Shown piece by piece: positions 7,919 through 36,238 of a stretch of DNA of 64,000 nt. Within the stretch, counting starts at the first letter, position 1; the number at the start of each line of letters is the position of its first letter. The notes below the pieces were generated by a model. That model had not been told where the DNA came from. It made no database searches and saw only the letters and a program-made list of their open reading frames with translations. The stretch is from Haladaptatus caseinilyticus. Its GTDB lineage: Archaea; Halobacteriota; Halobacteria; Halobacteriales; Haladaptataceae. The stretch is from assembly GCF_026248685.1 (NCBI RefSeq), contig NZ_CP111041.1:62001-126000 (forward strand). The letters are read 5' to 3'. The position numbers and the translations under genes are program-made.

Positions 7919-7962
7919 TGTTATGCAACGTACCAACACTGAAATGACCACACCAACTAACA

Positions 7963-12178: not shown

Positions 12179-13234
12179 ATGTCAAACCAGACTGCTACTA
12201 GTGTAGCTACGGGTCGCGAGCGATTCGACCAACTCCCGATGCGGGTTGCGATGGGCTCTTATCAACCGCTTACTGACGAGGTTCTTCGACTGATGCAACA
12301 GCTTGGTGTGGATGATGTTCTGCTCACACCGCACCGACATCCAGGCTTCGAATCAGCGATGCCGATGGGGAGGGCGTGGACTATCGACGAAATACGGGAG
12401 ATCCAAGCAAAGGTCGAATCCCATGATCTTCGTCTCTTTGCATTCGAGAAGATGCCGATTCCTCTCTACGAAATCCTCCTCGGTGACGGCGATCGGGAGA
12501 AAAAAACGGAAGCAATCAAAACGACGATTCGAAACATGGGTGAAGCTGGGGTTCCAGTTCTCGGATATAGCGGGCACCCGCCAGATGGTGCCGTTCGGAC
12601 GTCTCGAACCGTAAAGATACGCGGTGGTGCCGAAGCGTCGGCGTTCTCTATGGACGATATCGATAGCGAGACGCTGCTATACGACCGTGAATACGACGAA
12701 GAGGAGATTTGGAATGCGTACGAATCGTATCTTGAAGAGGTCGTTCCGGTTGCCGAAGAGGCAGGGGTCAAGCTCGGTATTCACCCGAGTGACCCACCCG
12801 TAGAACGCCTTGGCGGGGTCCCGCTCCTGTTTCGAAATTTCGAGAACTTCAAACGGGCGCTTGATCTCGTTCCGAGTGACAATCACGGTCTCAAGTTTTG
12901 TCTCGGATGCTGGTCTGAAATGGGCGAGAACATTCCGGAAGTGCTTCGCTACTTCGGTGGCGAAAACATCATTTATGTCCATTTCCGTGACGTCGTTGGA
13001 ACCGTCCCGTCGTTCCACGAGACGTTCATTGACGACAAAGCAAGCAACTTCGACGAGTATGAAGTAATGCGTACGTTACAGGATATCGGTTTCTCCGGGG
13101 TCATGACTCCTGATCACGTACCGGCTATGGAAGGCGACACCGAATGGGAGTTCGGTAGCGTAAGCGGACGAACGTACACCGTCGGCTACCTGAAGGGGTT
13201 ACTCAAAGCAGTTCGCGAACAAACAGATGTGTAG
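12179..13234 (+). CDS. uxuA: Mannonate dehydratase family protein, second copy
   Basis: A 351-residue TIM-barrel protein clearly paralogous to the gene at 4854. The shared core is EVVPVAEEAGVKLGIHPSDP, LKFCLGCWSEMG (metal Cys), IIYVHFRDVVG and VMTPDHVPAM. It differs in having an extra stretch around residues 150-185. It would dehydrate mannonate or a related aldonate to a 2-keto-3-deoxy acid. A TATA-like box 25-34 bases upstream points to a leaderless transcript. It opens the second catabolic island. Confidence 0.88.
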   Translation: MSNQTATSVATGRERFDQLPMRVAMGSYQPLTDEVLRLMQQLGVDDVLLTPHRHPGFESAMPMGRAWTIDEIREIQAKVESHDLRLFAFEKMPIPLYEILLGDGDREKKTEAIKTTIRNMGEAGVPVLGYSGHPPDGAVRTSRTVKIRGGAEASAFSMDDIDSETLLYDREYDEEEIWNAYESYLEEVVPVAEEAGVKLGIHPSDPPVERLGGVPLLFRNFENFKRALDLVPSDNHGLKFCLGCWSEMGENIPEVLRYFGGENIIYVHFRDVVGTVPSFHETFIDDKASNFDEYEVMRTLQDIGFSGVMTPDHVPAMEGDTEWEFGSVSGRTYTVGYLKGLLKAVREQTDV

Positions 13235-13364: not shown

Positions 13365-13796
13365 ATGTCACTGAACATCTACTTCGCGGCACCTCTGTTC
13401 ACACAGGCAGAGTTAGAATTCAACGAGCGTGTCTGTGGTATGCTAGAAGATGACGGTCATGACGTCTTCTTACCCCAGCGAGATGGACTCGAAAGCGACA
13501 CACTTTCGGAAGAAAAGGGTGCCGGAAACGCAATGCAGGAAATCTTTGAACTCGACCGACGGAACGTTCTCGATGCTGATCTGGTCACGGCGACGCTTGA
13601 CGGACGCGTCCCATCCGAGGGAGTCTGTGTCGAGATGGCATTCGCCTACGACCACGATATTCCAGTCATCGCCCTCAAAACTGACCGCCGAACCTTCGGA
13701 TTCCGTGAGGAGTACAACGCCATGCTGTACGGACTGTTCGAGGAGAAGGTCGAAACGCCAGAGGAACTCGTGGCCACGGTCAGACAGTACGACTGA
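13365..13796 (+). CDS. Nucleoside 2-deoxyribosyltransferase-like protein (1)
   Basis: The 143-residue protein has the NDT fold signature: the N-terminal IYFAAPLFTQAE and the active-site segment ATLDGRVPSEGVCVEMAFAY, where the final Glu aligns with the catalytic nucleophile of NDT. Classical NDTs transfer deoxyribose between bases; relatives hydrolyse nucleotides or nucleosides (for example RCL). The substrate is therefore uncertain. The gene is followed after 42 bp by a paralogue. TATTTATTA, 25-33 bases upstream, is a likely promoter. Neighbouring nucleoside hydrolases and an ECF transporter support a role in nucleoside metabolism. Confidence 0.85.
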   Translation: MSLNIYFAAPLFTQAELEFNERVCGMLEDDGHDVFLPQRDGLESDTLSEEKGAGNAMQEIFELDRRNVLDADLVTATLDGRVPSEGVCVEMAFAYDHDIPVIALKTDRRTFGFREEYNAMLYGLFEEKVETPEELVATVRQYD

Positions 13797-13838
13797 GGAC
13801 ACGAACTTTTATCTATTTCACATGCATTGTCGGGGTTG

Positions 13839-14294
13839 ATGCAAATTTACTTTGCAGGTCCGCTGTTTAACCAAGCCGAGCGTGATTTCAACGAGCGCGT
13901 GTGCAACGCGTTGGAAGCCGAGGGGTACGAAGTATTCCTCCCGCAACGAGACGTCGGCGATATCGGCGAGTTAGAGGTCATGAACCAAGAGGACGTAACG
14001 ACCGAGGATGTACTACAGGAGATATTCGAGATCGACCGCCAGGGCGTCCTCGATGCCGATATCGTTACTGCGACACTCGACGGACGCGTCCCATCAGAGG
14101 GAACCGTTATCGAGGCTGCAATCGCCTACGAACACGATATCCCGGTCATCGGCCTCAAGACTGACCGCCGCGTTTTTGCGATGGACGAACCGTACAATGC
14201 AATGGTGTTCGGGGTTCTCGATGATATCGTTGAAACTCCCGACGAACTCGTGAATGCAGTCAACGAGCGAGCGGCTGAGATCGTATCGAATTAA
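13839..14294 (+). CDS. Nucleoside 2-deoxyribosyltransferase-like protein (2)
   Basis: A paralogue of the preceding gene, about 151 residues, sharing IYFAGPLFNQAERDFNERVC and the catalytic segment ATLDGRVPSEGTVIEAAIAY. It differs by an insert around residues 45-60 (GDIGELEVMNQEDV). I choose the ATG at 13839; a TTG at 13827 is possible but less likely. CTTTTATCTATT, 23-34 bases upstream, suggests a separate promoter, so the tandem copies may be expressed independently. The duplication followed by divergence suggests different nucleoside or base preferences. Confidence 0.85.
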   Translation: MQIYFAGPLFNQAERDFNERVCNALEAEGYEVFLPQRDVGDIGELEVMNQEDVTTEDVLQEIFEIDRQGVLDADIVTATLDGRVPSEGTVIEAAIAYEHDIPVIGLKTDRRVFAMDEPYNAMVFGVLDDIVETPDELVNAVNERAAEIVSN

Positions 14295-14594
14295 AAATAC
14301 GTACAACCCTTCCCAGTTTTTATCGGTACGTGACATTGTGATGGTACTGCTACGGTGGCCAGAATAGAGTGCAAACAAGTCTTAATTCGATCACCCCTGT
14401 CGACCCTGACTCGATTATGGGGGAGAGCCATCTCTAACCGTATTGTGTTGCTCACGTCTACCCATCACTGGCGTCATCCGTCTTCGTTAATTAGTGAGCC
14501 TCTACTACAAAGAACGGAACGATATAATGGAGGCGCAAACCTGTTTAGTAATGATGAACAAAATCTTTTACCATGCGGCTTTCAACCTCAGCCA

Positions 14595-15395
14595 ATGAAG
14601 AAAGCGAAAAACCCGGTTGGGGCGGTCGAAACGACTATCCGAATAATCGAAGCGCTCGAACATCTTGACGGGGGAACGGTGACCGAGCTTGCGGAGTACC
14701 TCGGGGTAACGAAAGGAACAGTGCACAATCACCTTGCAACGCTTCAAGAGCATCAGTACGTCATCAATCGAGGTAGTGAGTACACTCTGAGCCTCAAATT
14801 CCTCGTCATCGGTGAGTATCTCCGAAATAACAACGTCTTGTACGAGCACGCGAAAGAGGAATTGGAAGCCTTAGCCGAACAGACCGGCGAATACGCACAC
14901 CTCTCGACTGAGCAATATGGGCTCAGTCAGAAACTTCATAAAGTGCAAGGAAAGAACGCGGTCGGAAGTGAGTATCAAAAGGCAAAACTGCAAAAACCGG
15001 ATTGTCTTCATTACACGGCGACTGGAAAGGTTATCCTCGCGCATTTACCCGAAGAACGGGTAGAGGAGATAATCGATCACTACGGTCTTCCGGAGCGAAC
15101 GAAGCACACTATCACCGATAGGGGTGAACTGGACGAAGCGCTCGAAGCCATCCGTGAACGAGGCTTCGCATTCAACGATGAAGAGGAAGTCACACGAATG
15201 CGCGCCGTCGGCGCCCCAATCTGCGACAGCGAAGGGGCCATCCTCGGCGCGGTGAGCGTTTCTGGCCCGATTAGTCGAATGAAGGGTGAACAGTTCAGAG
15301 AAGAGATTCCGGAGAAGGTGGTGAATACAGCGACGATCATCGAAATGAACATTAATATGACAGAGCGTCGTGGAAATATGCCGAATTACGTGTGA
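14595..15395 (+). CDS. IclR-family transcriptional regulator, second copy
   Basis: About 266 residues. The winged helix occupies roughly 6-65 (VETTIRIIEALEHLDGGTV, then TKGTVHNHLATLQEHQYVI). The ligand domain follows, with TGEYAHLSTEQYGLSQKLH, CLHYTATGKVILAHLP and GAILGAVSVSGPISRM. The ATG at 14595 is chosen because the 80 upstream in-frame codons do not resemble any IclR protein and overlap an AT-rich promoter region. The long first half of the ligand domain is like the protein at 3817, but the two are clearly diverged. It probably controls the adjacent SDR/FAH/racemase-family operon. Confidence 0.9.
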   Translation: MKKAKNPVGAVETTIRIIEALEHLDGGTVTELAEYLGVTKGTVHNHLATLQEHQYVINRGSEYTLSLKFLVIGEYLRNNNVLYEHAKEELEALAEQTGEYAHLSTEQYGLSQKLHKVQGKNAVGSEYQKAKLQKPDCLHYTATGKVILAHLPEERVEEIIDHYGLPERTKHTITDRGELDEALEAIRERGFAFNDEEEVTRMRAVGAPICDSEGAILGAVSVSGPISRMKGEQFREEIPEKVVNTATIIEMNINMTERRGNMPNYV

Positions 15396-15528
15396 ATTTC
15401 GAACCAATCGATCAGAATCGTTTGCTTGTTATTTCCTCGCACATGGTATTTAGTAGTGGTAAACGAAATCGTGTCTTTCATCGGCGAAAGTTTTTATACA
15501 TGCGTTCTCAGATAGTCCTGTGTCGAAA

Positions 15529-16320
15529 ATGGACTATGAAATAGCGGGCAATACAGCACTAGTTACTGCATCGAGTAGTGGCCTCGGAAAATCGTCGGCA
15601 ATAGCGCTTGCGAGTGAAGGGGCAAACGTTGTCATTAACGGCCGGGACGAAGGCCGCCTCGAAGAGGCAGCGGAAGATATCCGGTCTGTCGCGGAGGGTG
15701 AGGTTCTCACCGTACGGGGTGATTTGACCGATCCTGACGATATCGAGCGGCTCGTTACCCGGACTGTCGACGAGTTCGGCGGAATAGACCACCTCGTGAC
15801 CAACGCCGGCGGCCCACCGAGCGGTTCGTTCATGGAGACGGACGACGAAGATTGGTATGCCGCGTTCGATCTGCTCGTGATGAGCGTCGTTCGACTCGTC
15901 CGGGAGGCTGCTCCGTATCTATCTGACAACGGTGGTGGTACTATCGTTACCATTACGTCCCGAAGCGTCAAGGAGGCGATCCCATCACTCGTTCTTTCGA
16001 ACGCTGTCCGCATGGGCGTTATCGGACTCGAGAAAACGCTTTCAAAAGAATTAGCTCCGGAGGTCCGGGCAAACGCAGTTCTTCCGGCACCGCACGAAAC
16101 GGCTCGCCAGCAGGAACTTATCCAGGCTGGTGTCGATCGAGGAGAGTACGAAAGCTATGAGGAAGGTCTCGAAAGGAAGGGTGATATCAATCCCCTCGGT
16201 CGAATTGGTGACCCAATGGAACTGGGCGACGTCGTCGCCTACCTTTCCTCAGAGCAATCGAGTTTCATCAACGGCGTCGCTATACCTGTCGATGGAGGAC
16301 AGGGCGCTTCCAATCTGTAA
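15529..16320 (+). CDS. SDR-family oxidoreductase with altered catalytic motif
   Basis: About 263 residues with the Rossmann start ALVTASSSGLGKSSAIAL, the N-A-G motif TNAGGPPSG and the C-terminal INGVAIPVDGG. The usual Tyr-x3-Lys dyad is replaced: the aligned stretch reads SLVLSNAVRMGV with no Tyr or Lys. This GGPP/SNAxR type is a recognised SDR subgroup, so the change is not decay. The ATG at 15529 is preferred over a GTG at 15520; TTTTTATAC near 15490 is a likely promoter. It is nine bases from the FAH gene and may oxidise a 2-keto-3-deoxy sugar acid. Confidence 0.85.
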   Translation: MDYEIAGNTALVTASSSGLGKSSAIALASEGANVVINGRDEGRLEEAAEDIRSVAEGEVLTVRGDLTDPDDIERLVTRTVDEFGGIDHLVTNAGGPPSGSFMETDDEDWYAAFDLLVMSVVRLVREAAPYLSDNGGGTIVTITSRSVKEAIPSLVLSNAVRMGVIGLEKTLSKELAPEVRANAVLPAPHETARQQELIQAGVDRGEYESYEEGLERKGDINPLGRIGDPMELGDVVAYLSSEQSSFINGVAIPVDGGQGASNL

Positions 16321-16329: not shown

Positions 16330-17151
16330 ATGACACAACTCGCAAGAACGGTCGACGGACAACCTATGCTCGGCGACGATAACGGATTCGTCCCGCTCGC
16401 GTCCGTCGACGCATCACTTACTACCATTGAGGAGGCGCTACCACTTGCCGCTGCGAACGAACTGCCGAGCCCGACTGATGCGTCTGCGAATCCAGTTCCG
16501 CCAGATCACCTTTCGTTTGCCATGCCTCTCGAACGGCTGGGGAAACTTTGGGGAATCGGTCTGAACTACGCCGATCACGCGTCGGATCTGAACGAGGACC
16601 GACCAACTGAGCCAGCAAGTTTCATGAAACCGTCGACGACGGCAACCGGTCCCGGTGGGCCGATTCGACTCCCGTCTCGGGATATCTCGGATCGCGTGAC
16701 TGCGGAAGCCGAACTCGCTTTGGTCATCGGCCGAACCTGCTCCGATGTCGATGAAAGCGATGTCGACGACGTTATTGCTGGCTACCTCCCCGTTATCGAC
16801 ATGACAGCGGAGGATATATTGGAGCGAAATCCACGCTTCTTGACCCGAGCGAAGAGCTTCGATTCGTTCCTCGTGTTCGGTCCTTCTCTGGTGACGACTG
16901 ACGAAGTTGGTTCACTTGACGTGCTCTCCGTCAAAACCGTCGTCAACGGAAAGGTAGCCGCTGAAAACCGGGTTCGGAATATGATGGCGTCGCCGCGCAA
17001 ACTCGTGGCATTCCACTCCCGTATCATGACGCTTGAACCCGGTGATGTGATTTCGACGGGAACGCCGGGCGCGAAACAAATTATACCGGGAGATACCGTC
17101 AGAGCAGAGGTAGAGAGCGTCGGAAACGTATCTGCGGACGTGGTGAGATGA
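16330..17151 (+). CDS. Fumarylacetoacetate hydrolase (FAH) family protein
   Basis: The 273-residue protein has an FAH C-terminal domain: KLWGIGLNYADHASDLNEDR, PASFMKPSTTATGPG, the metal-ligand Glu pair AEAELALVIG, an Asp in PVIDMTAED, and the conserved end DVISTGTPGAKQIIPGDTV. Members split C-C bonds of 1,3-diketo acids. Its place between an SDR and a mandelate-racemase-family dehydratase matches the deoxy-sugar-acid 'diketo-hydrolase' route, in which a 2,4-diketo-3-deoxy acid is cut to pyruvate and a hydroxy acid. That assignment is inference from context. Confidence 0.88.
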   Translation: MTQLARTVDGQPMLGDDNGFVPLASVDASLTTIEEALPLAAANELPSPTDASANPVPPDHLSFAMPLERLGKLWGIGLNYADHASDLNEDRPTEPASFMKPSTTATGPGGPIRLPSRDISDRVTAEAELALVIGRTCSDVDESDVDDVIAGYLPVIDMTAEDILERNPRFLTRAKSFDSFLVFGPSLVTTDEVGSLDVLSVKTVVNGKVAAENRVRNMMASPRKLVAFHSRIMTLEPGDVISTGTPGAKQIIPGDTVRAEVESVGNVSADVVR

Positions 17152-17213: not shown

Positions 17214-18317
17214 ATGAAAATTACCGAAATTGAGAGTTTCGCCGTATCGATTCCGCTAAAAGAGCCCGTCGCCTTCGCAACCCGCGTTGTCGAAGAACGC
17301 GACCACGCCGTCGTATATATTCGAACGGACGATGGCACCGAAGGACTGGGATACACCCTCGGATATGGGGGTGCAGACGTCGTCGCAAAAGCTATCGAAA
17401 GCGTCCTCGCACCAATCGTAGAGGGTGAGGATCCCCGCGACACGTCGCGCCTCTGGCGCGAAATGTTTGACAGCACGGTTCAGATCGGCCGCAAAGGCGT
17501 GATGGTCAGGGCTATTTCCTGTATCGACACTGCTCTCTGGGATATCAAAGCGAAAGCGGCCGGAATGCCGCTTTACAAACTCCTCGGCGGACATACTGAT
17601 GAAGTTCCAGCGTACGCCAGCGGTGGATACTATCGCGAGGATAAGGGTCTAGAGGGTCTTCGTGAGGAGATGGAAACCTACGTCGACCGCGGGCATGATG
17701 TGGTTAAAATGAAAGTTGGTCGGAAATCGCTCGAAGAAGAAGTCGAGCGGGTCCGAGTTGCCCGTGAGGCCATCGGTCCGAACCGAACGCTCCTCATGGA
17801 CGCGAACGGGAAATGGAAGAACAAACAGGAAGCAGTCCGTGCATGCCGCAAGTTTGCCGAATACGATCCATACTTCATCGAAGAACCGGTGATGCCTGAC
17901 AGCCTCGATCTCTACCGGGAGGTCAACGAGTCACTCGACTACGCCGTTGCCGGCGGCGAATTGGAATTCAACCGCTATGGTTTCGCCGATCTCCTCCGAG
18001 AAGATGCTGTCGAAGTAATTCAACCGGATGTAACGGTTGTCGGTGGAGTTACCGAGTGGATGCGTGTCGCTGATATGGCTGCGTGCCACGATATACCGGT
18101 CGCACCGCACTACAATTGGGACCTTCATATTCAGTTGCTTGCTGCCATCGAGAACGGTCTTTGGATCGAGTACTTCTATCGAGACTCGGACGTGAAGGCC
18201 TTCGATGACGTTCTAAAATACCCGATCGAGCCCGAAGACGGGATGATCCAACTCCCGCAACGTCCTGGTCACGGAGTCGAACTCGATCGGGACGCTCTTG
18301 ACGAGTTCCGGATCTAA
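17214..18317 (+). CDS. Mandelate racemase/muconate lactonizing family dehydratase
   Basis: A 367-residue enolase-superfamily protein. The catalytic pieces of the mandelate racemase subgroup are visible: the K-x-K pair in VVKMKVGR (near 164-166), the metal ligands in LLMDANGKW, FIEEPV and AVAGGELE, the Asp in VIQPDVTVVGG and the catalytic His in VAPHYNWDLHIQ. Known subgroup members dehydrate acid sugars such as rhamnonate, fuconate, galactonate or gluconate. With the SDR and FAH genes it makes a three-enzyme set. The exact acid sugar cannot be inferred. Confidence 0.9.
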   Translation: MKITEIESFAVSIPLKEPVAFATRVVEERDHAVVYIRTDDGTEGLGYTLGYGGADVVAKAIESVLAPIVEGEDPRDTSRLWREMFDSTVQIGRKGVMVRAISCIDTALWDIKAKAAGMPLYKLLGGHTDEVPAYASGGYYREDKGLEGLREEMETYVDRGHDVVKMKVGRKSLEEEVERVRVAREAIGPNRTLLMDANGKWKNKQEAVRACRKFAEYDPYFIEEPVMPDSLDLYREVNESLDYAVAGGELEFNRYGFADLLREDAVEVIQPDVTVVGGVTEWMRVADMAACHDIPVAPHYNWDLHIQLLAAIENGLWIEYFYRDSDVKAFDDVLKYPIEPEDGMIQLPQRPGHGVELDRDALDEFRI

Positions 18318-18346: not shown

Positions 18347-19060
18347 TTATAGCTCGTATTGAGTATCAACGGATAGATCGACCACGGTCGGAGCGGAATC
18401 GCCTGTTCTGTCGGCGAGTTCCGAGATAAACGTGTCCACTTCGTCACTCCCGGGGACGTAGTGAACCGGAATCACCACATCGACATCGATCCAGCTCGCC
18501 GCAACAGCCGCGTCGCGAGGCGGGAGCGGCGCTCGGTCGCCGGGTGCGCCACCGACGGGCAGCATTACGACATCCGGCTCATTCAACTCGACGAACAGTT
18601 CGAGATCGCTGAATAGTGATGTATCCCCCATATAGTAGAGACTCGTGTCGGAAAATTCGAAGTGAAACCCGAGTGGCATCCCTGACACTCGCTGTCCTTG
18701 CGATTCGAAGTATGAGAGGTGACGAGTTTCCAAAATGCGGATTTCGACGGATTCTATCTCGAATGCGTTTCCCCAAATAACCCGGTCGACTTGGTGGGAT
18801 GGAAGCCCTTCACTGATCAAGTGGTCTGCCACTGCGGGCTCGGTGAAGACCTTTGCTCCGGAGGCTTCCGCGATGGGAAGGGTATCTCCCAAATGGTCGT
18901 AGGCACCGTGTGTGACGAGGATGTAGTCGACGTCGTCGAAGTCGGTCAGGGTTGCATCGGACCACTCCGGCTCGGTTATCCATGGATCGACAAGTATGCG
19001 CATGTCGTCGCAGTCGATTGCAAACGATGACAGCCCGTAGTACGTGATCGTTGGTGGCAT
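18347..19060 (-). CDS. Metallo-beta-lactamase-fold hydrolase
   Basis: About 237 residues of UPF0173/UlaG-like type: YYGLSSFAIDCDDMRILVDPW at the N-terminus, the metal motif THGAYDHLGD (THxxxDH), the later His in ILETRHLSYF, the YYMGDTS block with a ligand Asp, and PVHYVPGSDE near the C-terminus. The subgroup includes the sugar-lactone hydrolase UlaG. It is divergent from the uronate-dehydrogenase-like gene, whose reaction produces an aldarolactone. A lactonase role is therefore attractive, but it is inference. Confidence 0.82.
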   Translation of the reverse strand: MPPTITYYGLSSFAIDCDDMRILVDPWITEPEWSDATLTDFDDVDYILVTHGAYDHLGDTLPIAEASGAKVFTEPAVADHLISEGLPSHQVDRVIWGNAFEIESVEIRILETRHLSYFESQGQRVSGMPLGFHFEFSDTSLYYMGDTSLFSDLELFVELNEPDVVMLPVGGAPGDRAPLPPRDAAVAASWIDVDVVIPVHYVPGSDEVDTFISELADRTGDSAPTVVDLSVDTQYEL

Positions 19061-19143: not shown

Positions 19144-19992
19144 ATGAACACGTTGCCCATGACAACTAACGTTCTACTAACGGGAGCGTTCGGCCGTGTC
19201 GGCACCGCAATCATCGACCACCTGGCCGACGACGATCGATACAACTTCACGTATCTCAACCGGTCTGATCGTGACGGCTATGAAACCACCGTCGCTGACG
19301 TCTCAAATTACGAATCCATGCGACCGGCATTCGATGACCAGGACGCTGTTATTCATCTCGCAGGATATCCTGAAACTGACGGTACATGGGATCAGGTACT
19401 GGAAAACAATATAATCGGGATGTACAATACGCTGGAAGCTGCACGAGATGCGGACGTTCCAAAATTCATCTTCGGATCGACCAACCACGTGGTTGGTATG
19501 TATGAGGTCGAATTCAAACCGGAGATCTACGGTCTCGATTTCGACTTGACGGTCGATCACACCTCACCCCGACGTCCCGATTCTTACTACGGTTCATCGA
19601 AATCGTTCGACGAAGACCTCGGCCGATACTACGTCGAAAACTATGCGAACCCACGGCAGTTTTACTCACTCCGAATCTGTTCGGTACGACACGAAGCATA
19701 CGATCATCCATACGGCGATGCCGAACACGGAGTTGATGATGGTAAGTGGGAGCGCGGGAGCGAGCAGTACGAAGAACAGGTCGCTCGAATGAAAGCGATG
19801 TGGCAATCGCGTCGAGATTTGGCACAACAGATCGATTGCTGTCTGCAAGATGATGACGTCGAGTTCGATGTCTTCTACGGTGTAAGTGACAATGACCGTC
19901 GCTGGTTCGACATCGAACACGCTCGCGATGTGATCGGATACGAACCGAAAGATAACGGCGAAGAATGGGACGCACCACCCGAGGATCGGTGA
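19144..19992 (+). CDS. Uronate-dehydrogenase-like NAD-dependent enzyme
   Basis: The 282-residue protein is an extended SDR of the NAD-dependent epimerase/dehydratase fold. It has the Rossmann LLTGAFGRVGTAIIDHL, FGSTNHVVGMYE (the S-x-N-H segment typical of uronate dehydrogenases) and the catalytic Y-x3-K in PDSYYGSSKSFDEDL. Uronate dehydrogenases oxidise D-glucuronate or D-galacturonate to aldarolactones. The start may be 19144 or the ATG at 19159. The stop lies four bases before the nucleoside hydrolase ATG, so the two are co-transcribed, an unusual pairing. Confidence 0.82.
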   Translation: MNTLPMTTNVLLTGAFGRVGTAIIDHLADDDRYNFTYLNRSDRDGYETTVADVSNYESMRPAFDDQDAVIHLAGYPETDGTWDQVLENNIIGMYNTLEAARDADVPKFIFGSTNHVVGMYEVEFKPEIYGLDFDLTVDHTSPRRPDSYYGSSKSFDEDLGRYYVENYANPRQFYSLRICSVRHEAYDHPYGDAEHGVDDGKWERGSEQYEEQVARMKAMWQSRRDLAQQIDCCLQDDDVEFDVFYGVSDNDRRWFDIEHARDVIGYEPKDNGEEWDAPPEDR

Positions 19993-19996: not shown

Positions 19997-20932
19997 ATGT
20001 CCGAAAAACTTCTCCTAGATGTCGATCCCGGAATCGACGACGCCCTCGCGGTCTTGATGGCTCTCGGAAACGATGACGTTGAAGTCGTTGGTCTCACGAC
20101 AGTGATGGGAAACACGACGATCGAAAATACGACGAAAAACGCACTTTCACTGCTTGAGTTCGTCGACCGCACCGATATCCCCGTTGCGAAAGGTGCAGGC
20201 CGTCCGTTTGCCGACGACCTCGTGATGGCCGAATACGTCCATGGTCCCGGTGGTATGCCAAGCTCCGTTCGTGAATCCTTACCGACCCCATCGGGGGACT
20301 CGGTCGATACACACGCGGTCGATTTCATCATCGAACAGGCACGCAAACACGGTGACGATCTGACGGTCGCCGCGGTCGGCCCACAAACGAATCTCGCCTT
20401 AGCGATGGCGCTGGAACCCGAGCTCCCGAATATGATCGGCGATATCTATCAGATGGGAGGCGCACTAAAAACGACGGGCAACGTGACGCCACAAGCATCG
20501 TTTAATTTCTACGTCGACGCGGCTGCCGCCGCACGGGTAGTACAGGACGGGTGGCCGAAAATCGTGGGCCTCGATGTGACTGAACCCGCCTATCTCCCCT
20601 CCGAAGCGCGCGATCGCTTCAGAGGAAACGGTGCGTACGGCGATCTCATCGCCGACATATTAGCATATAAAGCGCAGGGGCCGGATGGGACGGTCGCAGA
20701 AGGTGGATCGATCACCAGCGATGCTGTCGTGCTCGCGGGAATACTTGGCGACCCCATAACATTTGAGGAAGCTCACGTCGGGATCGACACGACCGGCGGA
20801 CCGTCGAACGGAGCGACGGTTTACGACGAACACGGAGTATTCGAGAAGCCGCCGAACTGTGACGTTGCTCTCGCGGTAGATGTCGATCAATGTCGTGACA
20901 ATATTCTCTCGAACCTGGAGACGTTACTATGA
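19997..20932 (+). CDS. Nucleoside hydrolase family protein (1)
   Basis: The 311-residue protein has the inosine-uridine nucleoside hydrolase fold, with the Ca-binding N-terminal motif DVDPGIDDA (Asp10, 14, 15), HGPGG (His82) and GNVTPQASFNFYVD. Compared with the Crithidia enzyme, the Glu166 that binds the ribose 5'-OH is Ser (ASFN, not AEFN). The catalytic His241-Asp242 pair is Ser-Asp (ITSDAVV). Metal ligands are kept, so it is probably active with changed specificity or leaving-group chemistry. The same changes occur in the paralogue at 24353. It directly follows the uronate-dehydrogenase-like gene. Confidence 0.87.
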   Translation: MSEKLLLDVDPGIDDALAVLMALGNDDVEVVGLTTVMGNTTIENTTKNALSLLEFVDRTDIPVAKGAGRPFADDLVMAEYVHGPGGMPSSVRESLPTPSGDSVDTHAVDFIIEQARKHGDDLTVAAVGPQTNLALAMALEPELPNMIGDIYQMGGALKTTGNVTPQASFNFYVDAAAAARVVQDGWPKIVGLDVTEPAYLPSEARDRFRGNGAYGDLIADILAYKAQGPDGTVAEGGSITSDAVVLAGILGDPITFEEAHVGIDTTGGPSNGATVYDEHGVFEKPPNCDVALAVDVDQCRDNILSNLETLL

Positions 20933-20971
20933 AAAGCCGAGGCTTACAAAACCCGCTTCATAAGCACACAC

Positions 20972-21436
20972 ATGGATAAAATACTTACAGTCGTCGAACC
21001 GGTAGAAACGGACATCCAACTCCTCAAAGAAGCCGGTAGTATCGCCGCTACCGCTGGCGTCGAACTCGTCGTTCTCTCGCTCGTGATCGATGGTAGCGAT
21101 CGAGCGACAACCGAAGCGATGGATCAGTGGTTGGATATAGATGCCGGAGACGAAAGGACGAATACGAAGATCGATATCGCCAGCAGGTTTGCGACAGCGA
21201 TTGCCAGTGAAACGCTCGACTCGCTCGACGTAAACTACACTGCTATCGGCGACCACATCGAGAATACGCGGCCATCGGCGAAGGTCATCAACGTCGCGGA
21301 GAGTCATGGATGTGATCACATATACGTTACCAATCGGAGTCATTCGCCGACTGGAAAGGCGCTTTTTGGGGAGATGGCTCAATCGATCATCCTCAATTTC
21401 GACGGATATGTTACTGTTCGGACGGCTAAGCACTAA
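20972..21436 (+). CDS. UspA-family universal stress protein
   Basis: The 154-residue protein is a single Usp domain: MDKILTVVEPVE at the start, VELVVLSLVID, and the C-terminal HIYVTNRSHSPTGKALFGEMAQSIIL. The loop does not carry the full G-x2-G-x9-G-S/T ATP motif, so nucleotide binding is uncertain. It lies 39 bp after the nucleoside hydrolase and is probably in the same transcript. Why a Usp sits with nucleoside hydrolase and ECF genes is unknown. Confidence 0.8.
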   Translation: MDKILTVVEPVETDIQLLKEAGSIAATAGVELVVLSLVIDGSDRATTEAMDQWLDIDAGDERTNTKIDIASRFATAIASETLDSLDVNYTAIGDHIENTRPSAKVINVAESHGCDHIYVTNRSHSPTGKALFGEMAQSIILNFDGYVTVRTAKH

Positions 21437-21779
21437 TTCGACCAGTATTGTTCAGTCGGTCGAGGAAAACGATCGCTTCGGCTGTCCCTACGACGAACCC
21501 TCCTTTGGCTGTCGCACCCGGAATTTCCGGGGTGAGAGAAGACAGAGTTGGTATTACGCATGTTACGAGCGGCTGGCGGTGGATCAAAATCGTCCGGCCG
21601 GAGGTCGAACGTATCGACGGAAGAGGCTGATGTTCGTCACGTCGCTCATTTTCGAGTTTCTTTCCCTACATGTTTTCCCGCAACAGGGGCAAGATATATA
21701 TCCATAGTAGTGACACGGTGTGGTATGGGAAAGTGGAACAATAACCAACGGTGGATTATCATTCACAGGGCTTACGACG

Positions 21780-22559
21780 ATGGCTGAAACGAACTCATCG
21801 ATTTACAGACCAGGGGAAAGCATCCTTCACAGGCTCAATCCGGTGACTTCGATCGTCCTCGCCGTTTGCCTCTCACTGATCGTGTTCATCGTTTCCGACT
21901 ACCGCGTTGCATTGGTACTGAGCATCGTGTTAGCTGGACTCGTATTCATCGCGAGGGTACACGGGGTAATATTCCGGCTATACGCGACAGTGGCGGTTCC
22001 GTTTGCCCTGTTTTTAGTTCTCGTACAGGGGATTCTCAACCCAGCTAATCAACTAACTCCACTCTATACGGTCGGTCCAATTACGGTGTGGAAGGAAGGG
22101 TTCGTCGCAGCGCGGCTCATCTTCCTTCGAATTTCGGTTCTGATACTGTCGTTCTTGCTCCTTGCAACGACAGCACAACCACAACGAATTCGCATTGCAC
22201 TCACTGAGAAGGGAGTCCCGAACAAGTTGGCGTACGTATTCGTCGCCTCGCTTCAAATAATCCCCGAAATCCGTGATCGTGCCCATTCGATCGCGGAAGC
22301 CCAGCAAGCACGCGGCCTCGATACGAGGGCGAATATCCGATCAAGATTCAAATCGATCGTCGCCCTCCTCACGCCGCTACTCATTAGCACGCTCATCGCC
22401 GCGAACACACGAGCACTGGCACTCAATGCGAGAGGATTTAAGGCAGGTGGGAAGCGGACGTTCCTCTATGAAGTCTCCGACCCAGTCGCCGAACGCGTAG
22501 TACGGTATTGCGCGGGTGTAGCCGTGATCGGTGCGATCTTTTGGAGGATCATCGCATGA
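21780..22559 (+). CDS. ecfT: ECF transporter T component (EcfT)
   Basis: The 259-residue membrane protein starts with YRPGESILHRLNPVTSIVLA, typical of EcfT/CbiQ. It has about five membrane segments and the two cytoplasmic coupling-helix signatures, AQQARGLDTR (about 175) and LNARGFKAGG (about 222), which contact the ATPases. The ATG at 21780 is preferred over 21720. Its TGA overlaps the ATPase ATG (ATGA), so the two are coupled. It links the energising ATPases to an S component, most likely the gene at 25587. Confidence 0.92.
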   Translation: MAETNSSIYRPGESILHRLNPVTSIVLAVCLSLIVFIVSDYRVALVLSIVLAGLVFIARVHGVIFRLYATVAVPFALFLVLVQGILNPANQLTPLYTVGPITVWKEGFVAARLIFLRISVLILSFLLLATTAQPQRIRIALTEKGVPNKLAYVFVASLQIIPEIRDRAHSIAEAQQARGLDTRANIRSRFKSIVALLTPLLISTLIAANTRALALNARGFKAGGKRTFLYEVSDPVAERVVRYCAGVAVIGAIFWRIIA

Positions 22560-24304
22560 GTCAACTTCGTCTCTCGAACGTCTCGTTCAGGTATCAAACG
22601 CAACCGGAAGACGAAGCCGCCGTCGACGACGTTTCGATCGAAATCGATGCCGGAAGCTTCGTCGGAGTGACCGGAGCAAGTGAATCGGGGAAAGCGACCC
22701 TTTGTCGTCTCCTTTCCGGCCAGATTCCGCATTTTTACAACGGTGAGCTTTCCGGTGAAGTTACCGTCGACGATGCTGTGATTAGCGATCACTCGATCGG
22801 GGAACTCTCCGCGAAGATCGGTTACGTCTTCGAAAACCCGTACGACCAACTGACCGGTGCGACATCGACGGTTCTCGAGGAGGTCGCCTTCGGGTTGGAG
22901 AGTTACGGCCTCGGTCGTGAGGAAATGCGTGAGCAGGCTCGCGAAGCGCTGGCGACCATCGGCATCGAAGACCTCGCCGATCGCCACCCTCAGCAGTTGT
23001 CAGGAGGCCAATGTCAACGAGTGGCGATCGCGTCGGTTCTCGCCATGAAACCGGAAATCTTCATCCTCCAACAACCCACTGCACAGCTCGATCCGGAGGG
23101 CAGTAAAGAGGTGTTCGATGTCGTTAGCAAGATGAACGATGAAGGGTACACCGTCGTTATCGTCAGTCAGGAGTTAGAGCGCCTAGTACCATACTTGGAT
23201 CGACTGGTGTACATGGAAAATGGGAAAATCGAGCTCGATGGGACACCGCCAACCGTCCTCACTCGCGCCGTCGAAGCCGATTTCCCGATCACTATTCCCG
23301 TGCCGGTGGATATCGGTCACCGTCTCCGTGAATCAGGACTGATCCCAGAGAGCGAACCGGTTCCGATAACAAGCGACGAATGTTTAGCTGAACTACGGCG
23401 ATCTACAACGACGCCCACGAGCACGGTCGAAAATACTCGGTCACCACAGGAGCCCGAAAATCGAGATACGCCGGAAATATCAGCGTTGGACGCGCAACCG
23501 GATGGTGGCGTGACGGTGGATATCGACGACCTTCATCATCGCTACGAAAACGGGATCGAAGCATTATCGGGTGTCTCGATGTCGCTCGAACACGGCTGTG
23601 TCTGCCTGATCGGGCAGAACGGTGCCGGAAAATCGACTCTCATCAAACACCTCAACGGCCTCCTCAGTCCGACAAAAGGAACCGTTTGTATTCGAGGAAA
23701 GGATACCCGCAATCACTCGGTCGCACAACTCGCCCACGATGTCGGACTCAGTTTCCAGAATCCGGACGATCAGCTGTTCCACAGTTCGGTCGAAGAGGAG
23801 GTAAAATACGGACCGCGAAACCTGGGCTACGACGAGCAAGAAGTGGCTACAAAGACGGAGTGGGCGCTCGAAATGTTCGGTCTTGTGGATCGACGAACTG
23901 AAAACCCGTACGACTTCGGTGACGCGTGGCGAAAGCGCGTCGCTGCTGCCTCCGTCGTCGCAATGGACACTCCGATAGTCGTTCTTGATGAACCCACGAG
24001 TGGGCAGGATGCGCCGGGACAGGAGAGTCTAAGCGATGCGGTCGAGGCCCTTGTCGATCGGGGCAAATTGGTGGTGGTCATCACGCACGACATGGATTTC
24101 GTTCGAGAACATGCGGATCGAACGATCCTTCTCGCCCAAGGGACGGTCATCGCTGACGGGGAGACGAGAGCGATACTCAGCGACAAGAAGACGCTCGCCC
24201 GTTCGAACGTCCTTCCACCGACCGTAATGGAGCTCGGACTCGAGTTAGGAGTCGGCCCCGTGCTTTCCACGGACGATTTGCTCAAAGCTATCGGAGCAGA
24301 ATAG
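22556..24304 (+). CDS. ecfA: ECF transporter fused A-A' ATPase, asymmetric
   Basis: The 582-residue protein has two ABC ATPase domains (about 1-245 and 320-560) joined by a Ser/Thr/Pro-rich linker. Domain 1 keeps LSGGQ (148-152) but has altered Walker A (GASESGKA, 40-47), Q-loop Gln to Glu (FENP, 93), Walker B LQQP (171-174) and H-loop His to Gln (205). Domain 2 has a consensus Walker A (GQNGAGKST), Q-loop (FQNP), LDEP and ITHD, but its signature is degraded to FGDAWRKR. Pairing across the dimer gives one complete ATP site and one degenerate site. It energises uptake together with EcfT and EcfS. Confidence 0.93.
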   Translation: MSQLRLSNVSFRYQTQPEDEAAVDDVSIEIDAGSFVGVTGASESGKATLCRLLSGQIPHFYNGELSGEVTVDDAVISDHSIGELSAKIGYVFENPYDQLTGATSTVLEEVAFGLESYGLGREEMREQAREALATIGIEDLADRHPQQLSGGQCQRVAIASVLAMKPEIFILQQPTAQLDPEGSKEVFDVVSKMNDEGYTVVIVSQELERLVPYLDRLVYMENGKIELDGTPPTVLTRAVEADFPITIPVPVDIGHRLRESGLIPESEPVPITSDECLAELRRSTTTPTSTVENTRSPQEPENRDTPEISALDAQPDGGVTVDIDDLHHRYENGIEALSGVSMSLEHGCVCLIGQNGAGKSTLIKHLNGLLSPTKGTVCIRGKDTRNHSVAQLAHDVGLSFQNPDDQLFHSSVEEEVKYGPRNLGYDEQEVATKTEWALEMFGLVDRRTENPYDFGDAWRKRVAAASVVAMDTPIVVLDEPTSGQDAPGQESLSDAVEALVDRGKLVVVITHDMDFVREHADRTILLAQGTVIADGETRAILSDKKTLARSNVLPPTVMELGLELGVGPVLSTDDLLKAIGAE

Positions 24305-24352
24305 TTCACGAACAAAAATAACGAAATAATAAATAATTCACCAATCACGATC

Positions 24353-25288
24353 ATGAGTACGAAACTGTTACTTGACGTAGACCCCGGCAACGACGACGCA
24401 ATCGCATTGTTCATGGCCCTCGGTGCTGACAACGTCGACCTCGTCGGCGTGACGACCGTAATGGGTAACACGACCATCGAAAATACGACGCGGAACACCC
24501 TGTCCCTGCTGGAGTTCGTCGACCGTGCTGACGTTCCAGTCGCGAAAGGTGCGACCCGACCGTTCGCCGACTCGCTCGAAACGGCGGAGCATATCCACGG
24601 TCCGGGTGGGCTTCCTGAAAGTGTTCAGAAAGAACTGCCCGAACCGAGCGGTGTACCGATCGACACACACGCGGTCGACTTCATCATCGAACAGGCCCAC
24701 GAATACGGTGACGAATTGACGATCGCCGCTGTCGGCCCACAAACGAATCTCGCGCTCGCTATCGCAAAAGAGCCCAACCTCCCCAACATGGTTGGCGACA
24801 TCTACCTGATGGGAGGCGCACTGAAGACGACGGGTAACGTGACTCCACAAGCATCGTTCAATTTCTACGTCGATGCTCCTGCCGCTGCTCGTGTCGTGCA
24901 GGATGCGCAGCCAAAGATCGTTGGCCTCGACGTCACTGAACACGTATACGTCGACACGGAAGACATTCGAGCGCTTGCGGAAGAACCGAATCCCTTGTCG
25001 ACGACGGCTTCTATCCTGGAGTTCAGTATCGAGGAAGTACGGACAAAGTTCGGTCACGACGGAGGCCTCGCGAGTGACGCTGTCATTCTCACGGACATTA
25101 TCGACGATATCCTCGAATTCGAGGCGGCGTACGTCGAAATTGATACGACGGGCGGTCCGTCGAACGGAGCAACGATTTACGATGAACACGAGGTTTATGA
25201 GAAACCGCCAAACTGTGAAGTAGCACTCGGCGTTGACGGGGAGCGTTACGCGTCGGCCGTTTTGAGCTCCCTCCGGTCACTCCACTAA
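24353..25288 (+). CDS. Nucleoside hydrolase family protein (2)
   Basis: A 311-residue paralogue of the gene at 19997, with DVDPGNDDA, HGPGG and GNVTPQASFNFYVD. It shares the same two substitutions relative to canonical nucleoside hydrolases: Ser for the 5'-OH-binding Glu, and Ser-Asp (LASDAVI) for the His-Asp pair. The C-terminal third (about 195-235) differs most between the two, which suggests different base or substrate selection. It sits between the ECF ATPase and S component. ATAATAAATAA about 25 bases upstream suggests its own leaderless promoter. Confidence 0.88.
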   Translation: MSTKLLLDVDPGNDDAIALFMALGADNVDLVGVTTVMGNTTIENTTRNTLSLLEFVDRADVPVAKGATRPFADSLETAEHIHGPGGLPESVQKELPEPSGVPIDTHAVDFIIEQAHEYGDELTIAAVGPQTNLALAIAKEPNLPNMVGDIYLMGGALKTTGNVTPQASFNFYVDAPAAARVVQDAQPKIVGLDVTEHVYVDTEDIRALAEEPNPLSTTASILEFSIEEVRTKFGHDGGLASDAVILTDIIDDILEFEAAYVEIDTTGGPSNGATIYDEHEVYEKPPNCEVALGVDGERYASAVLSSLRSLH

Positions 25289-25586
25289 TCCTGACAGCGA
25301 TCTCTGGCAGGGTTGTCACCGTAGATATATTGATTCTGACCGACATGCTCAGGATGGATCCTTGTCTGGCTCGGACAATTGATTCCCTTATCACAACCCG
25401 CTAAAATCGGCAATCCGTTCCTTGGCGGTTTCACCTGAATATTCGATTGGATAATACCACGAGCCCGTTGTGGAAACGGTCTGCGACAGGCAAATTCGAT
25501 AGCACACAATATTCCGAATATTCGAACATGATCTTAACCGGTATTTTTATTATCTGGAAGGGAGGTTTTACATGGTGTGGTAGACG

Positions 25587-26216
25587 ATGGCAGACAACAC
25601 TAGTAAACAGAGTGGAATATTTGGGTCAGTGAAAACACATGTCAGTTCGGATTTTTCATCGACGACGACATGGGTACTGATTCCAGTAGGAATAGGACTT
25701 AACGCCACTGGTGATTTCATTGCGAATACGCTCAAATTACCATTGTTCCTCGACAACATCGGAACAGTACTTCTGGCAATTCTCGTCGGACCATGGGCGG
25801 CCGCTCTGACGGGCGGTCTGAGCAACATCATCAGCGGAATGATCGGTAATCCGGTGCAAATGGCATTCGTCCTTACACCGGTCGCAATGGGACTCGTTGG
25901 GGGTTATCTGGCCCGTCGGGGATGGTTCTCCAATGCAAAGAAGGTGATCGTACCCGGTATTCTTCTCGGTCTCACCTCGGTTATCTTTTCGGTTCCAGTC
26001 GTGGTCATGGTGTTCGGTGGTGTCACAGGCGCTGGAATGAGCGTAATAACGAGTCTCTTTGTCGCATCCGGTCTAAACATCGTGGTAAGCGCCCTGATCT
26101 CGCAATTAATAGTTGACCTTATCGATAAAACGATCATGGCATATGCAGCGTACTTCATCGCTCAGTCCGTTCCCAAGCGGTACCTCCCAGAGCAGGGGCA
26201 GAAAGTACTCTCCTGA
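25587..26216 (+). CDS. ecfS: ECF transporter S component (substrate-binding membrane protein)
   Basis: The 209-residue protein has about six membrane segments. Its pattern LPLFLDNIGTVLLAILVGP, then AALTGGLSNIISGMIGNP, is seen in ECF S components and related small membrane receptors. The genes for T, A-A' and this protein surround a nucleoside hydrolase, so it probably binds a nucleoside or glycoside ligand. TTTTTATTATC about 40 bases upstream may be its promoter. A lone S component in this place gives the system a dedicated rather than shared receptor. Confidence 0.8.
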   Translation: MADNTSKQSGIFGSVKTHVSSDFSSTTTWVLIPVGIGLNATGDFIANTLKLPLFLDNIGTVLLAILVGPWAAALTGGLSNIISGMIGNPVQMAFVLTPVAMGLVGGYLARRGWFSNAKKVIVPGILLGLTSVIFSVPVVVMVFGGVTGAGMSVITSLFVASGLNIVVSALISQLIVDLIDKTIMAYAAYFIAQSVPKRYLPEQGQKVLS

Positions 26217-28132: not shown

Positions 28133-28768
28133 GGACGTGAAACAGGATACCGTCTGTCGGAAAGCCTTCGATGCAAGATTAGGATGAAAGTAGTTATCCC
28201 CCGAGATCAAGGCAATCATAAATCCCCACGTGCTGCAGGCCAACCCTCGGAGCGATTTTAACTACAACAGCAAAATACGAACGGGAATGGAATCGAATAT
28301 AATTGAGTCGATGAGTGCCGTTGAACTGTGAGCGGCCAATCAAAGGGTGAAAACCACTACTCATGAAAATCAACAGCGGAATTGAAATCACCCCGGGATC
28401 CCCGAATCGATCTGTGCGCAACGCGTTCTCACCCCGAACTGGCTGATCTGAGATGGTTGTACCGAACGACTCGTACGCTATCGACACTCGAAAGTCGTTA
28501 AACATCCCGAATAGTGCAGTAGTGGTGACTGCGGCGGTACCCTCCGCGTCAAGGAGGCTTCCGAATGAGGCACGAACGCTGCCAATGTGGGGTTCAACTG
28601 TAGCGTACAGTGAAATATCCGTTCCATACCTCTCGACAAATAGATGACCGACATGGATCTCTCCGACACTTTTGAATCAATCCGTGCGCTGATCATCGTC
28701 TAAATTTAGTGAAGAGCAACATTCTCTCCAGAAAACTTATAGCAAGAAGTGAAGTAGGCGGGAACGAA
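28133..28768. other. Intergenic region with repeat copies
   Basis: No credible gene. It contains repeat copy C (28366-28420), and a second partial copy near 28672-28690 reads TTTGAATCAATCCGTGCGCT. This suggests the repeat or its flanks were duplicated nearby. Confidence 0.45.
28366..28420 (+). repeat. Dispersed ~57-bp repeat, copy C
   Basis: Contains CAACAGCGGAATTGAAATC, then CACCCCGGGATCCCCGAATC and GATCTGTGCGCA. The right half closely matches copies A and B. Confidence 0.55.
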
Positions 28769-29383
28769 ATGGCTCAGCAGTGGTCCCGACGTGCAGTTCT
28801 CAGCCTGTGCGGAATTTCTGCTGTCTCGCTTGGTGGTTGTACAGCACTTGGGGACAGTAAGAATGAGGACAGTAAGAATGAGGACAGTAAGAATGAGGAC
28901 AGTAAGAATGAGGACAGTAAGAATGAGGACAGTAAGAATGAGGACAGTAAGAATGCTCAACCGCTTACCGAGAAGTATGAGGAGACGCTTGAGCTCGAGG
29001 AGCCAATCACATACGAGCATGACCACCTACAGCTCTCAGGGCCAGAGAACCCGGTTACTACAGGAGAAACGATCGAGTTTACCGTTACAAACACGAGTAC
29101 GACCGAGATTTCGCTCGGCTGCCACAACCCGTGGACGCTTCAACAGCAGAAAAATGGTCGGTGGCGCGAGATGATGTGGACGACAAGCAATGTGTTCCTT
29201 GCGTGTTTAACCACCCTCAAACCCGGCGACTCCATCACCGAAACCGTCACGCTGGGACGCTCGGCACTCGAAACCAAAAGTGAGATCATTAAACACGAAT
29301 TCGTCCCTGGGTTGTATCGGTTCGTATTGCTTGCGACTGACCCCTTCTTCGCGATCAACTTCCGTATAAAACCGTCTAAATGA
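28769..29383 (+). CDS. Tat lipoprotein with DSKNE tandem repeat
   Basis: The 204-residue protein has a Tat lipoprotein signal (WSRRAVLSLCG, lipobox SLGGC). Next comes a spacer of six DSKNE pentapeptides plus a partial seventh. The C-terminal beta-sandwich-like domain contains VTTGETIEFTVTNTSTTEI and GCHNPWTLQQQKNGRWREM. The domain resembles the immunoglobulin-like fold used in many haloarchaeal surface lipoproteins; function is unknown. The ATG at 28769 precedes the signal. A truncated second copy of the C-terminal domain lies at 38757. The spacer is encoded by a perfect minisatellite and probably varies in length between strains. Confidence 0.8.
   Translation: MAQQWSRRAVLSLCGISAVSLGGCTALGDSKNEDSKNEDSKNEDSKNEDSKNEDSKNEDSKNAQPLTEKYEETLELEEPITYEHDHLQLSGPENPVTTGETIEFTVTNTSTTEISLGCHNPWTLQQQKNGRWREMMWTTSNVFLACLTTLKPGDSITETVTLGRSALETKSEIIKHEFVPGLYRFVLLATDPFFAINFRIKPSK
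28853..28955 (+). repeat. 15-bp minisatellite inside a lipoprotein gene
   Basis: Six perfect head-to-tail copies of GACAGTAAGAATGAG, plus a 13-base partial seventh. The 15-base period keeps the frame, so copy-number change would lengthen or shorten the surface-exposed acidic spacer without breaking the gene. Confidence 0.95.
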
Positions 29384-33619: not shown

Positions 33620-33742
33620 AAACGATAACCTGGTCCCATTATCTATTGGTACCGACCGCCATCCCTTATATAACAGGCGAAAGGATTAGCTTTGACCGAG
33701 TTAGTAGACTCATTCCTACGCCCTCAACACGGAGACCCGCCC

Positions 33743-34387
33743 ATGATCATCACCGATATCACGGTACCCGCCGACCAATTCGCCCTCGGCCGCCTGCTCG
33801 ACGAATACCCCGCCATCAAGATCGAACTCGAACGCCTCGTCCCACTCCAATCGGGCATCATCCCCTTATTCTGGGTTGAAGGTGGTGAGAGCGACGCCAT
33901 CGAAGCCACACTCCGAAATGATCCGCTGACACAGGACGTCCAGTTACTCACCGAAGCAGATGGTCGTCTGCTGTTTGAAATCGAATGGAGCCCGGACGTC
34001 AACCATCTCGTCCAACCCTTACTCGCGACGGATGCCGAGATACTCATCGCAGAAGGCACCGTCGATGCCTGGGAGTTCCGCCTGCAATTTCCGATCCGAC
34101 AGGCACTCACCGACTTTCTAACCCAATGTCGTGAACACGGCGTTGCAATTGAGCTTCGTCGGCTATACAATCCTACGCTTCCAGACGAGGGGGGCCAACT
34201 GACTGATGATCAGTATGAAATCATTGCAGCCGCCTATGAGCGCGGGTTTTGGAATATTCCGCGTGACGCCACCCTTGAAGACCTCGCTGCAGAGCTCAGT
34301 ATCAGTGGGAATTCAGCCTCCCAACGCCTTCGACGGGGGATTACTACCCTTGTCGCGGAAGTCTTGTTTCCGGATGCCACACAGTAG
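33743..34387 (+). CDS. Bat-like HTH_10 transcriptional regulator (1)
   Basis: About 214 residues. The N-terminal Bat-type sensor-like domain (about 1-145) contains DITVPADQFALGRLLDEYP and FEIEWSPDVNHLVQPLL. The HTH_10 domain (about 155-210) has LTDDQYEIIAAAYERGFWNI and LEDLAAELSISGNSASQRLR. This is the bacterio-opsin-activator architecture found in many haloarchaeal regulators, without PAS or GAF domains. The start at 33743 begins exactly at the domain. Targets unknown. Two paralogues lie at 35534 and 36649, and a broken one at 56333. Confidence 0.9.
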   Translation: MIITDITVPADQFALGRLLDEYPAIKIELERLVPLQSGIIPLFWVEGGESDAIEATLRNDPLTQDVQLLTEADGRLLFEIEWSPDVNHLVQPLLATDAEILIAEGTVDAWEFRLQFPIRQALTDFLTQCREHGVAIELRRLYNPTLPDEGGQLTDDQYEIIAAAYERGFWNIPRDATLEDLAAELSISGNSASQRLRRGITTLVAEVLFPDATQ

Positions 34388-34438
34388 CGGTGGAAGGTCG
34401 TTTGTGCCCAATCGGACATTCAGGTTTGCTTATAAATG

Positions 34439-34462
34439 ATGGGGGTTCATGACAACCCCCAT
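34439..34462 (+). terminator. GC-rich stem-loop between Bat and HalOD1 genes
   Basis: The arms GGGGGTT (34441-34447) and AACCCCC (34454-34460), extended by two flanking pairs, enclose a 6-base loop about 50 bases after the Bat-like gene. It is probably a transcript-end structure or a dyad regulatory element. Confidence 0.45.
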
Positions 34463-34587
34463 TAAGCCTGAGAGTGGCCCTTACCCCATCACGATACATA
34501 GAATACTCTGAAGAACACTCGGCCACGACCCGTGTCCCCCGCTCGCCAAGTAGCACACCGATAGACAACCCACTTCAGAGGATTATA

Positions 34588-36184: not shown

Positions 36185-36238
36185 GTCCCGTTCATGTGAA
36201 GACCCACTATTCTCACTCACTGGCGATCTAATGGACCT

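Follow-up and report, generated by a model that had tools for sequence, protein, structure and literature searches.

Why would an energy-coupling factor (ECF) transporter be interleaved with nucleoside hydrolases (NHs) in a haloarchaeon, and what might it import? ECF cargo known so far consists mostly of vitamins and metals, taken up with high affinity. The question is raised by positions 19,997 to 26,216 of a 64,000-nt stretch of Haladaptatus caseinilyticus DNA (contig NZ_CP111041.1; the whole stretch is referred to as the window), where genes for EcfT, a fused EcfA-EcfA' ATPase and an S component (EcfS) alternate with two NHs. We put a probability of roughly two in three on the reading, drawn from gene content and its conservation, that this locus encodes a dedicated ECF importer for nucleosides (or close N-ribosides) together with a catabolic module for non-phosphorylating pentose degradation.

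Organization of the ECF-NH locus

Gene families were assigned from Pfam and NCBIfam profile matches, and all coordinates are those of the window:

15520-16320, plus strand: SDR2, short-chain dehydrogenase (SDR) family (PF13561, 4.7e-46)
16330-17151, plus strand: FAH-family hydrolase or dehydratase (PF01557, 1.5e-53)
17214-18317, plus strand: MR_MLE, predicted enolase-superfamily sugar-acid dehydratase (PF13378, 6.6e-66)
18347-19060, minus strand: MBL, metallo-beta-lactamase-fold hydrolase (PRK00685/UPF0173), candidate sugar lactonase (NF001911, 154.7 bits vs. a cut-off of 144)
19144-19992, plus strand: Azf/uronate-dehydrogenase-like, predicted NAD-dependent sugar 1-dehydrogenase (NF041293 Azf, 1.1e-60, below cut-off)
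19997-20932, plus strand: NH1, nucleoside hydrolase (PF01156, IU_nuc_hydro, 9e-77)
20972-21436, plus strand: universal stress protein (Usp) domain (PF00582, 1.8e-9)
21437-21779, no strand: gap at the S-gene position of relatives (loci L019 and L123 have the order Usp-S-T)
21780-22559, plus strand: EcfT (PF02361, CbiQ, 2.7e-30); the open reading frame (ORF) opens at 21720, probable start 21780
22556-24304, plus strand: fused EcfA-EcfA' ATPase, two ECF ATPase domains (TIGR04521 and TIGR04520)
24353-25288, plus strand: NH2, nucleoside hydrolase (PF01156, 3e-80)
25587-26216, plus strand: EcfS, CD3073-like S component, paralogue linked to genes for nucleoside 2-deoxyribosyltransferase-like (NDT) enzymes (NF045596, 2.6e-33, below cut-off)

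ORF positions and profile matches bear out the initial annotation in its placement of EcfT, the fused ATPase, the S component and two NHs, both transcribed in the same direction, one of them directly after a uronate-dehydrogenase-like gene (NH1 starts 4 bp past the Azf-like gene). The Usp gene between NH1 and EcfT, absent from that description, holds an equivalent position in several relatives. The ECF-NH grouping is not a product of chance, as it recurs over genera and phyla and purifying selection acts on its proteins (dN/dS roughly 0.2 or less, with synonymous sites near saturation).

Recurrence of the ECF-NH association

In a neighbourhood survey of 69 loci of this S family, spread over Halobacteria, Chloroflexota, Actinomycetota and Bacillota, an NH was found within 7.5 kb of the S gene in 45. 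A control set of 37 EcfT genes from 14 haloarchaeal genomes, with a distance limit of 10 kb, gave a nearby NH for 7/13 EcfT genes of this S family vs. 0/24 of the others (Fisher p about 2e-4, to be taken as a guide only because relatives share ancestry and are not independent samples, a caution that tells against our reading). The association recurs in haloarchaea, Chloroflexota, Streptomyces and Enterococcus, with different gene orders: S-T-A-A'-NH in Enterococcus raffinosus and, usually, PfkB kinase-NH-(NH)-S-T-A-A' in Chloroflexota, the latter implying hydrolysis followed by use of the sugar. Even among the six haloarchaeal loci of the family that have no NH, S has an ADP-ribosylglycohydrolase-family gene nearby in four and an adenine deaminase in one; these are likewise N-glycosidic or nucleobase enzymes. 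In a separate haloarchaeal subgroup (L018, L020, L023 and L024) the ADP-ribosylglycohydrolase-family gene lies directly upstream of S, a partnership that suggests a different N-ribosyl ligand there.

Some other neighbours of the family were also recorded. Acidimicrobiia-type loci (L045-L048, L051 and L055) have Amidohydro_2 genes downstream of S and no NH. In 16 loci (L131 5532-5957 and L066 13402-14175 among them), most of them from Chloroflexota, the ECF genes have a PCC/PPC-domain (PF03479) gene in their neighbourhood; in Salmonella such a gene immediately precedes S-T-A-A', between epd and tkt, and the window has one at 1558-1965, about 18 kb upstream of NH1.

Family, fold and origin of the S component

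The initial annotation tied EcfS to no family of a known vitamin, and clustering with a vitamin or metal family had been named as the outcome that would speak against a nucleoside ligand; profile searches and structure comparison agree that it belongs to none. The nearest named family is NF045596 (CD3073, putative, ligand not stated), which EcfS matches at 2.6e-33 but with 115 bits against a cut-off of 180; haloarchaeal members as a group score 112-134 bits, and none of 391 Halobacteria genomes reaches the cut-off. No match to a vitamin, metal or QueT/QrtT S family was obtained in Pfam or NCBIfam, the sole further hits being the general PF12822 (1.1e-5, under the family cut-off) and a weak TIGR04518 folT_fam match (21 bits vs. 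60), while the EcfS profile touches FolT weakly (2e-5). An AlphaFold model (pLDDT 88.6, 51-sequence alignment) retrieved ECF S subunits as all of its 21 top Foldseek matches (FolT, ThiT, RibU, BioY, PanT and others), although at E-values of only 5e-3 upward. As modelled, EcfS thus has an S-component fold and is a distant, below-cut-off relative of the CD3073 family; on these profile and structure comparisons we discarded assignment to a vitamin S family. A literature search for CD3073 found no paper, with most subscription papers outside its coverage.

Relatives of EcfS are present in 12/391 Halobacteria genomes; across the genome collection they occupy 63 loci, with Chloroflexota, Actinomycetota and Ignavibacteria among the groups represented. 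The exact order T-AA'-NH-S, which had been proposed as a signature to look for across Halobacteria, is not conserved and proved peculiar to this genome: relatives usually have NH1-Usp-S-T-AA'-NH2, with S between Usp and EcfT, whereas in the window S is located past NH2 and a 343-bp gap separates Usp from EcfT. A remnant of S was expected in this gap and was not detected by tblastn. In Haladaptatus pallidirubidus, plasmid 4 bears the usual module and its own S (L032), and plasmid 5 bears a solitary S that is 90% identical to EcfS and adjoins orthologues of the window genes IclR2, NDT2, NDT1 and UxuA2 (described below). In the tree, this S and EcfS group together as sister to the usual S (support 100/99). 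Taken together, the empty gap, the plasmid 5 neighbourhood and the tree indicate that EcfS is a paralogue linked to NDT genes, which seems to have taken the place of the ordinary S and presumably works with the resident T-AA'.

A predicted single-site ATPase

EcfT has the two coupling ARG motifs (AQQARG and LNARG), and both domains of the A-A' pair are present in one fused ORF. In the EcfA half, GK[ST]T and LDEPT are replaced by GKAT and LQQPT, a change shared by this module's relatives and new relative to the initial annotation; LSGGQ is kept in the window protein. The EcfA' half keeps its Walker motifs (GKST and LDEPT) and has a degenerate signature, a feature of the whole family, Chloroflexota included. 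From the geometry of ATP-binding cassette (ABC) dimers, the two losses would fall on the same composite site, so that a single hydrolytic ATP site is predicted. Their conservation raises the question of whether an ECF transporter can run on one hydrolytic site.

The catabolic module and a proposed pathway

The order SDR2-FAH-MR_MLE-MBL(reverse)-Azf-NH1-(Usp)-S-T-AA'-NH2 is found again in Haladaptatus species, Halogranum amylolyticum, Halegenticoccus tardaugens, one further genome (G323) and Halomarina sp. BND7, and the reverse orientation of MBL is kept in ECF-bearing modules. MR_MLE is 91-94% identical in most module relatives and 86% in Halomarina. In Haladaptatus salinisoli just SDR2-FAH-MR_MLE and an MBL fragment remain. 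Two other genomes (G277 and G380) lack this ECF set and retain the catabolic genes together with UxuA2-NDT1-NDT2-IclR2; in each, an EamA permease gene separates NDT2 from IclR2, and at the module G277 has a cytidine-deaminase-like gene as well as a CUT1-like ABC importer. That importers change while the catabolic set stays constant speaks for the ECF system as the supplier of the set's substrate.

Individual enzymes were compared with characterized proteins. NH1 and NH2 match the IU nucleoside hydrolase family and contain the DxDPGxDD calcium-site motif, the best match of NH2 in the PDB being E. coli RihA (1.4e-50). Both proteins start directly at the DVDPG motif and have no signal peptide, so that the nucleoside should enter the cell intact. 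The Azf-like protein matches PDB uronate dehydrogenases 3ay3 and 3rft, the best NCBIfam match of MR_MLE is arabinonate dehydratase (below cut-off), and FAH matches HpcE best (1gtt, 4.6e-52), as well as L-2,4-diketo-3-deoxyrhamnonate hydrolase (8gsr, 6e-31). A third, more distant NH (33-34% identity to NH1/NH2) is present elsewhere on the same contig (L029, G000:C6:405450-406346).

From these data we infer a ligand, a set of enzyme activities and an order of steps as follows. EcfS would bind a nucleoside outside the cell, and EcfT with the fused EcfA-A' would drive it inward, probably with ATP hydrolysis at one site only. NH1 and NH2 would then cleave the N-glycosidic bond in the cytoplasm, the freed pentose would be oxidized at C1 by the uronate-dehydrogenase/Azf-like enzyme, and the lactone would be opened by the MBL metallo-hydrolase. 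Dehydration of the aldonate by MR_MLE would yield 2-keto-3-deoxypentonate, to be consumed by the FAH-family enzyme with SDR2 in a Route II- or III-like manner, while UxuA2 and the NDT-like enzymes would probably serve a side branch that shares the IclR-type regulator.

The logic of this pathway matches known non-phosphorylating pentose routes (PMC6336799, PMC8551123). The oxidative pentose pathway of Haloarcula, from ribose to alpha-ketoglutarate (Johnsen 2020), as described in PMC8551123, likewise combines a sugar dehydrogenase, a lactonase, an enolase-superfamily dehydratase and conversion of 2-keto-3-deoxypentonate; in that description it handles free pentoses, whereas the window has NHs and an ECF importer ahead of these steps and its cluster has no alpha-ketoglutarate semialdehyde dehydrogenase. 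Route III of Herbaspirillum huttiense (PMC6336799) similarly employs an SDR and an FAH-family enzyme on 2-keto-3-deoxypentonate, although SDR2 and the window FAH differ from it in the residues discussed below.

An NDT operon under a probable common regulator

Upstream of the module, the window contains the following features:

11744-11760 (2 mismatches) and 11901-11917 (1 mismatch), no strand: two GTTTAG-N5-CTAAAC-like sites upstream of the UxuA2-NDT1-NDT2-IclR2 operon
12179-13234, plus strand: UxuA2, UxuA/xylose-isomerase-like TIM barrel, putative sugar-acid dehydratase (PF03786, 2e-54)
13365-13796, plus strand: NDT1, nucleoside 2-deoxyribosyltransferase-like (PF05014, 1.6e-17)
13827-14294, plus strand: NDT2, nucleoside 2-deoxyribosyltransferase-like (PF05014, 1.4e-17)
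14543-14559, plus strand: operator-like site (2 mismatches) shortly before the probable IclR2 start
14595-15395, plus strand: IclR2, IclR-family regulator (PF01614, 1.4e-31); the ORF opens at 14355, probable start 14595
15448-15464, plus strand: ATTTAGTAGTGGTAAAC, operator-like (2 mismatches), ahead of SDR2 and aligned with the SDR2-upstream sites of related loci; a BRE/TATA-like stretch comes after it

The two upstream NDT-like genes are thus where the initial annotation had them. Orthologues of NDT1 (87-91%) and, beside NDT genes, of UxuA2 (86-87%) occur in L128, L143 and L144, and close relatives of NDT2 are limited to 5/391 Halobacteria genomes. The sequence GTTTAG-N5-CTAAAC precedes SDR2 in several relatives, and no exact copy was found in 1.46 Mb of other loci. 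The window holds seven matches at ≤2 mismatches vs. 1.39 expected (none of 100 shuffles reached seven), some of them away from UxuA2, IclR2 and SDR2; sites like the two at 11744-11760 and 11901-11917 are also found ahead of the equivalent operon in L128 and L143. A single IclR-type regulon spanning the NDT operon and the catabolic module is suggested by this pattern. We had considered the NDT genes unlinked to the module, as they are missing near most relatives, and this was reversed by H. pallidirubidus plasmid 5, by G277 and G380 and by the common operator-like sites; shared neighbourhoods and operators tie them to it. The unit extends beyond the one proposed initially, taking in a sugar-oxidation module and an NDT operon that probably share one regulator.

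Weighing the nucleoside reading against its rivals

Several observations count against a catabolic nucleoside importer. An NH is lacking in 24/69 loci (some of them truncated), which leaves room for different ligands among members of the S family; close MR_MLE homologues also occur in sugar-acid clusters without NHs, and nucleoside phosphorylase-family genes are also found in this genome. In the alignment, the RihA/RihB-type catalytic His before Asp near the C-terminus was sought and not found in NH1 or NH2, which, like all complete module relatives, have SD at the place of the RihA HD; in Chloroflexota NHs beside S the pair is ND. SDR2 and its orthologues have SNAVR instead of the classical YxxxK, and FAH conserves H-x-x-D where characterized C-C hydrolases have H-x-x-E (PMC6336799). 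With the NH and SDR2 residues changed, activities may differ from the family names. Pseudogene decay was rejected as the cause, as the replacements are common to all complete relatives and selection is purifying. Shared by intact and constrained genes, these changes look like adaptation, yet they weaken naming by family alone.

The altered NH site is also what lends some plausibility to the rival that we regard as strongest, though improbable, namely import of a pentose, a sugar acid or an N-glycoside (nicotinamide riboside or a methylated nucleoside), with NHs acting on N-ribosides that have a good leaving group. Dehydratase homologues in sugar-acid loci with TRAP transporters and the ADP-ribosylglycohydrolase partners elsewhere fit it as well, but a free pentose would not need an NH, and adenine deaminase, cytidine-deaminase-like and PfkB partners indicate common nucleosides. 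Somewhat less probable still is salvage of modified tRNA nucleosides or bases (queuosine/archaeosine precursors), with NHs freeing the base for reuse rather than the sugar as food. Its model is C. difficile QueK-QrtT-QueL (CD1682-1684), a queuosine salvage system in which an ECF S component shares an operon with an NH (PMC11477304) and QrtT imports preQ1, Q and q (PMC11477304; PMC11130926), i.e., the Q nucleoside besides bases; a non-HD active site could suit an unusual base. That system, however, serves a micronutrient, includes a lyase and has no sugar-oxidation genes, whereas in every complete relative of the window module the NHs come with five sugar-oxidation enzymes, which salvage would not need; moreover, the S family is rare, unlike tRNA modification, and has no QueT/QrtT match. 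A vitamin importer placed by chance inside a sugar-catabolic island would agree with the bulk of known ECF cargo and with the weak FolT similarity, but we consider it very improbable given interleaving conserved in at least four genera, other ECF loci of the same genomes without NHs (0/24) and no linked vitamin genes.

The nucleoside or N-glycoside ligand advanced in the initial annotation draws its support from comparative genomics, that is, from the position of S outside vitamin and metal families and from the recurring ECF-NH association. Its companion statement was that ECF uptake of nucleosides is not known to be characterized in haloarchaea. Our literature search, with most subscription papers outside its coverage, found no ECF importer described as feeding nucleosides into catabolism; for the pairing of ECF with NH, QueK-QrtT is a precedent. 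A catabolic nucleoside importer, if confirmed, would extend the role of ECF transporters beyond vitamins and metals to nucleosides for carbon catabolism and provide a ligand prediction for an S family that has none. It would also give Halobacteria a hydrolytic, apparently non-phosphorylating way of degrading nucleosides in addition to the phosphorolytic, phosphorylating one (nucleoside phosphorylase/pentose bisphosphate pathway; PMC9700705). At even odds, we further propose that the CD3073-like S components constitute a cross-domain ECF family for nucleosides as a carbon source, not a micronutrient, the haloarchaeal branch of which operates on a single competent ATP site after loss of the EcfA Walker residues and the facing EcfA' signature.

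Other features of the window

A second sugar-acid uptake and catabolism cluster (IclR, UxuA-like, SDR and a DctP/DctQ/DctM TRAP transporter) occupies 3817-9826. A putative lipoprotein ORF with an EDSKN repeat run near its N-terminus lies at 28709-29383, three adjacent BAT/HTH_10 regulator genes at 33692-37329 (about 3.6 kb) and, outside the ECF-NH cluster, a family B DNA polymerase-like ORF of 704 aa at 40835-42949.

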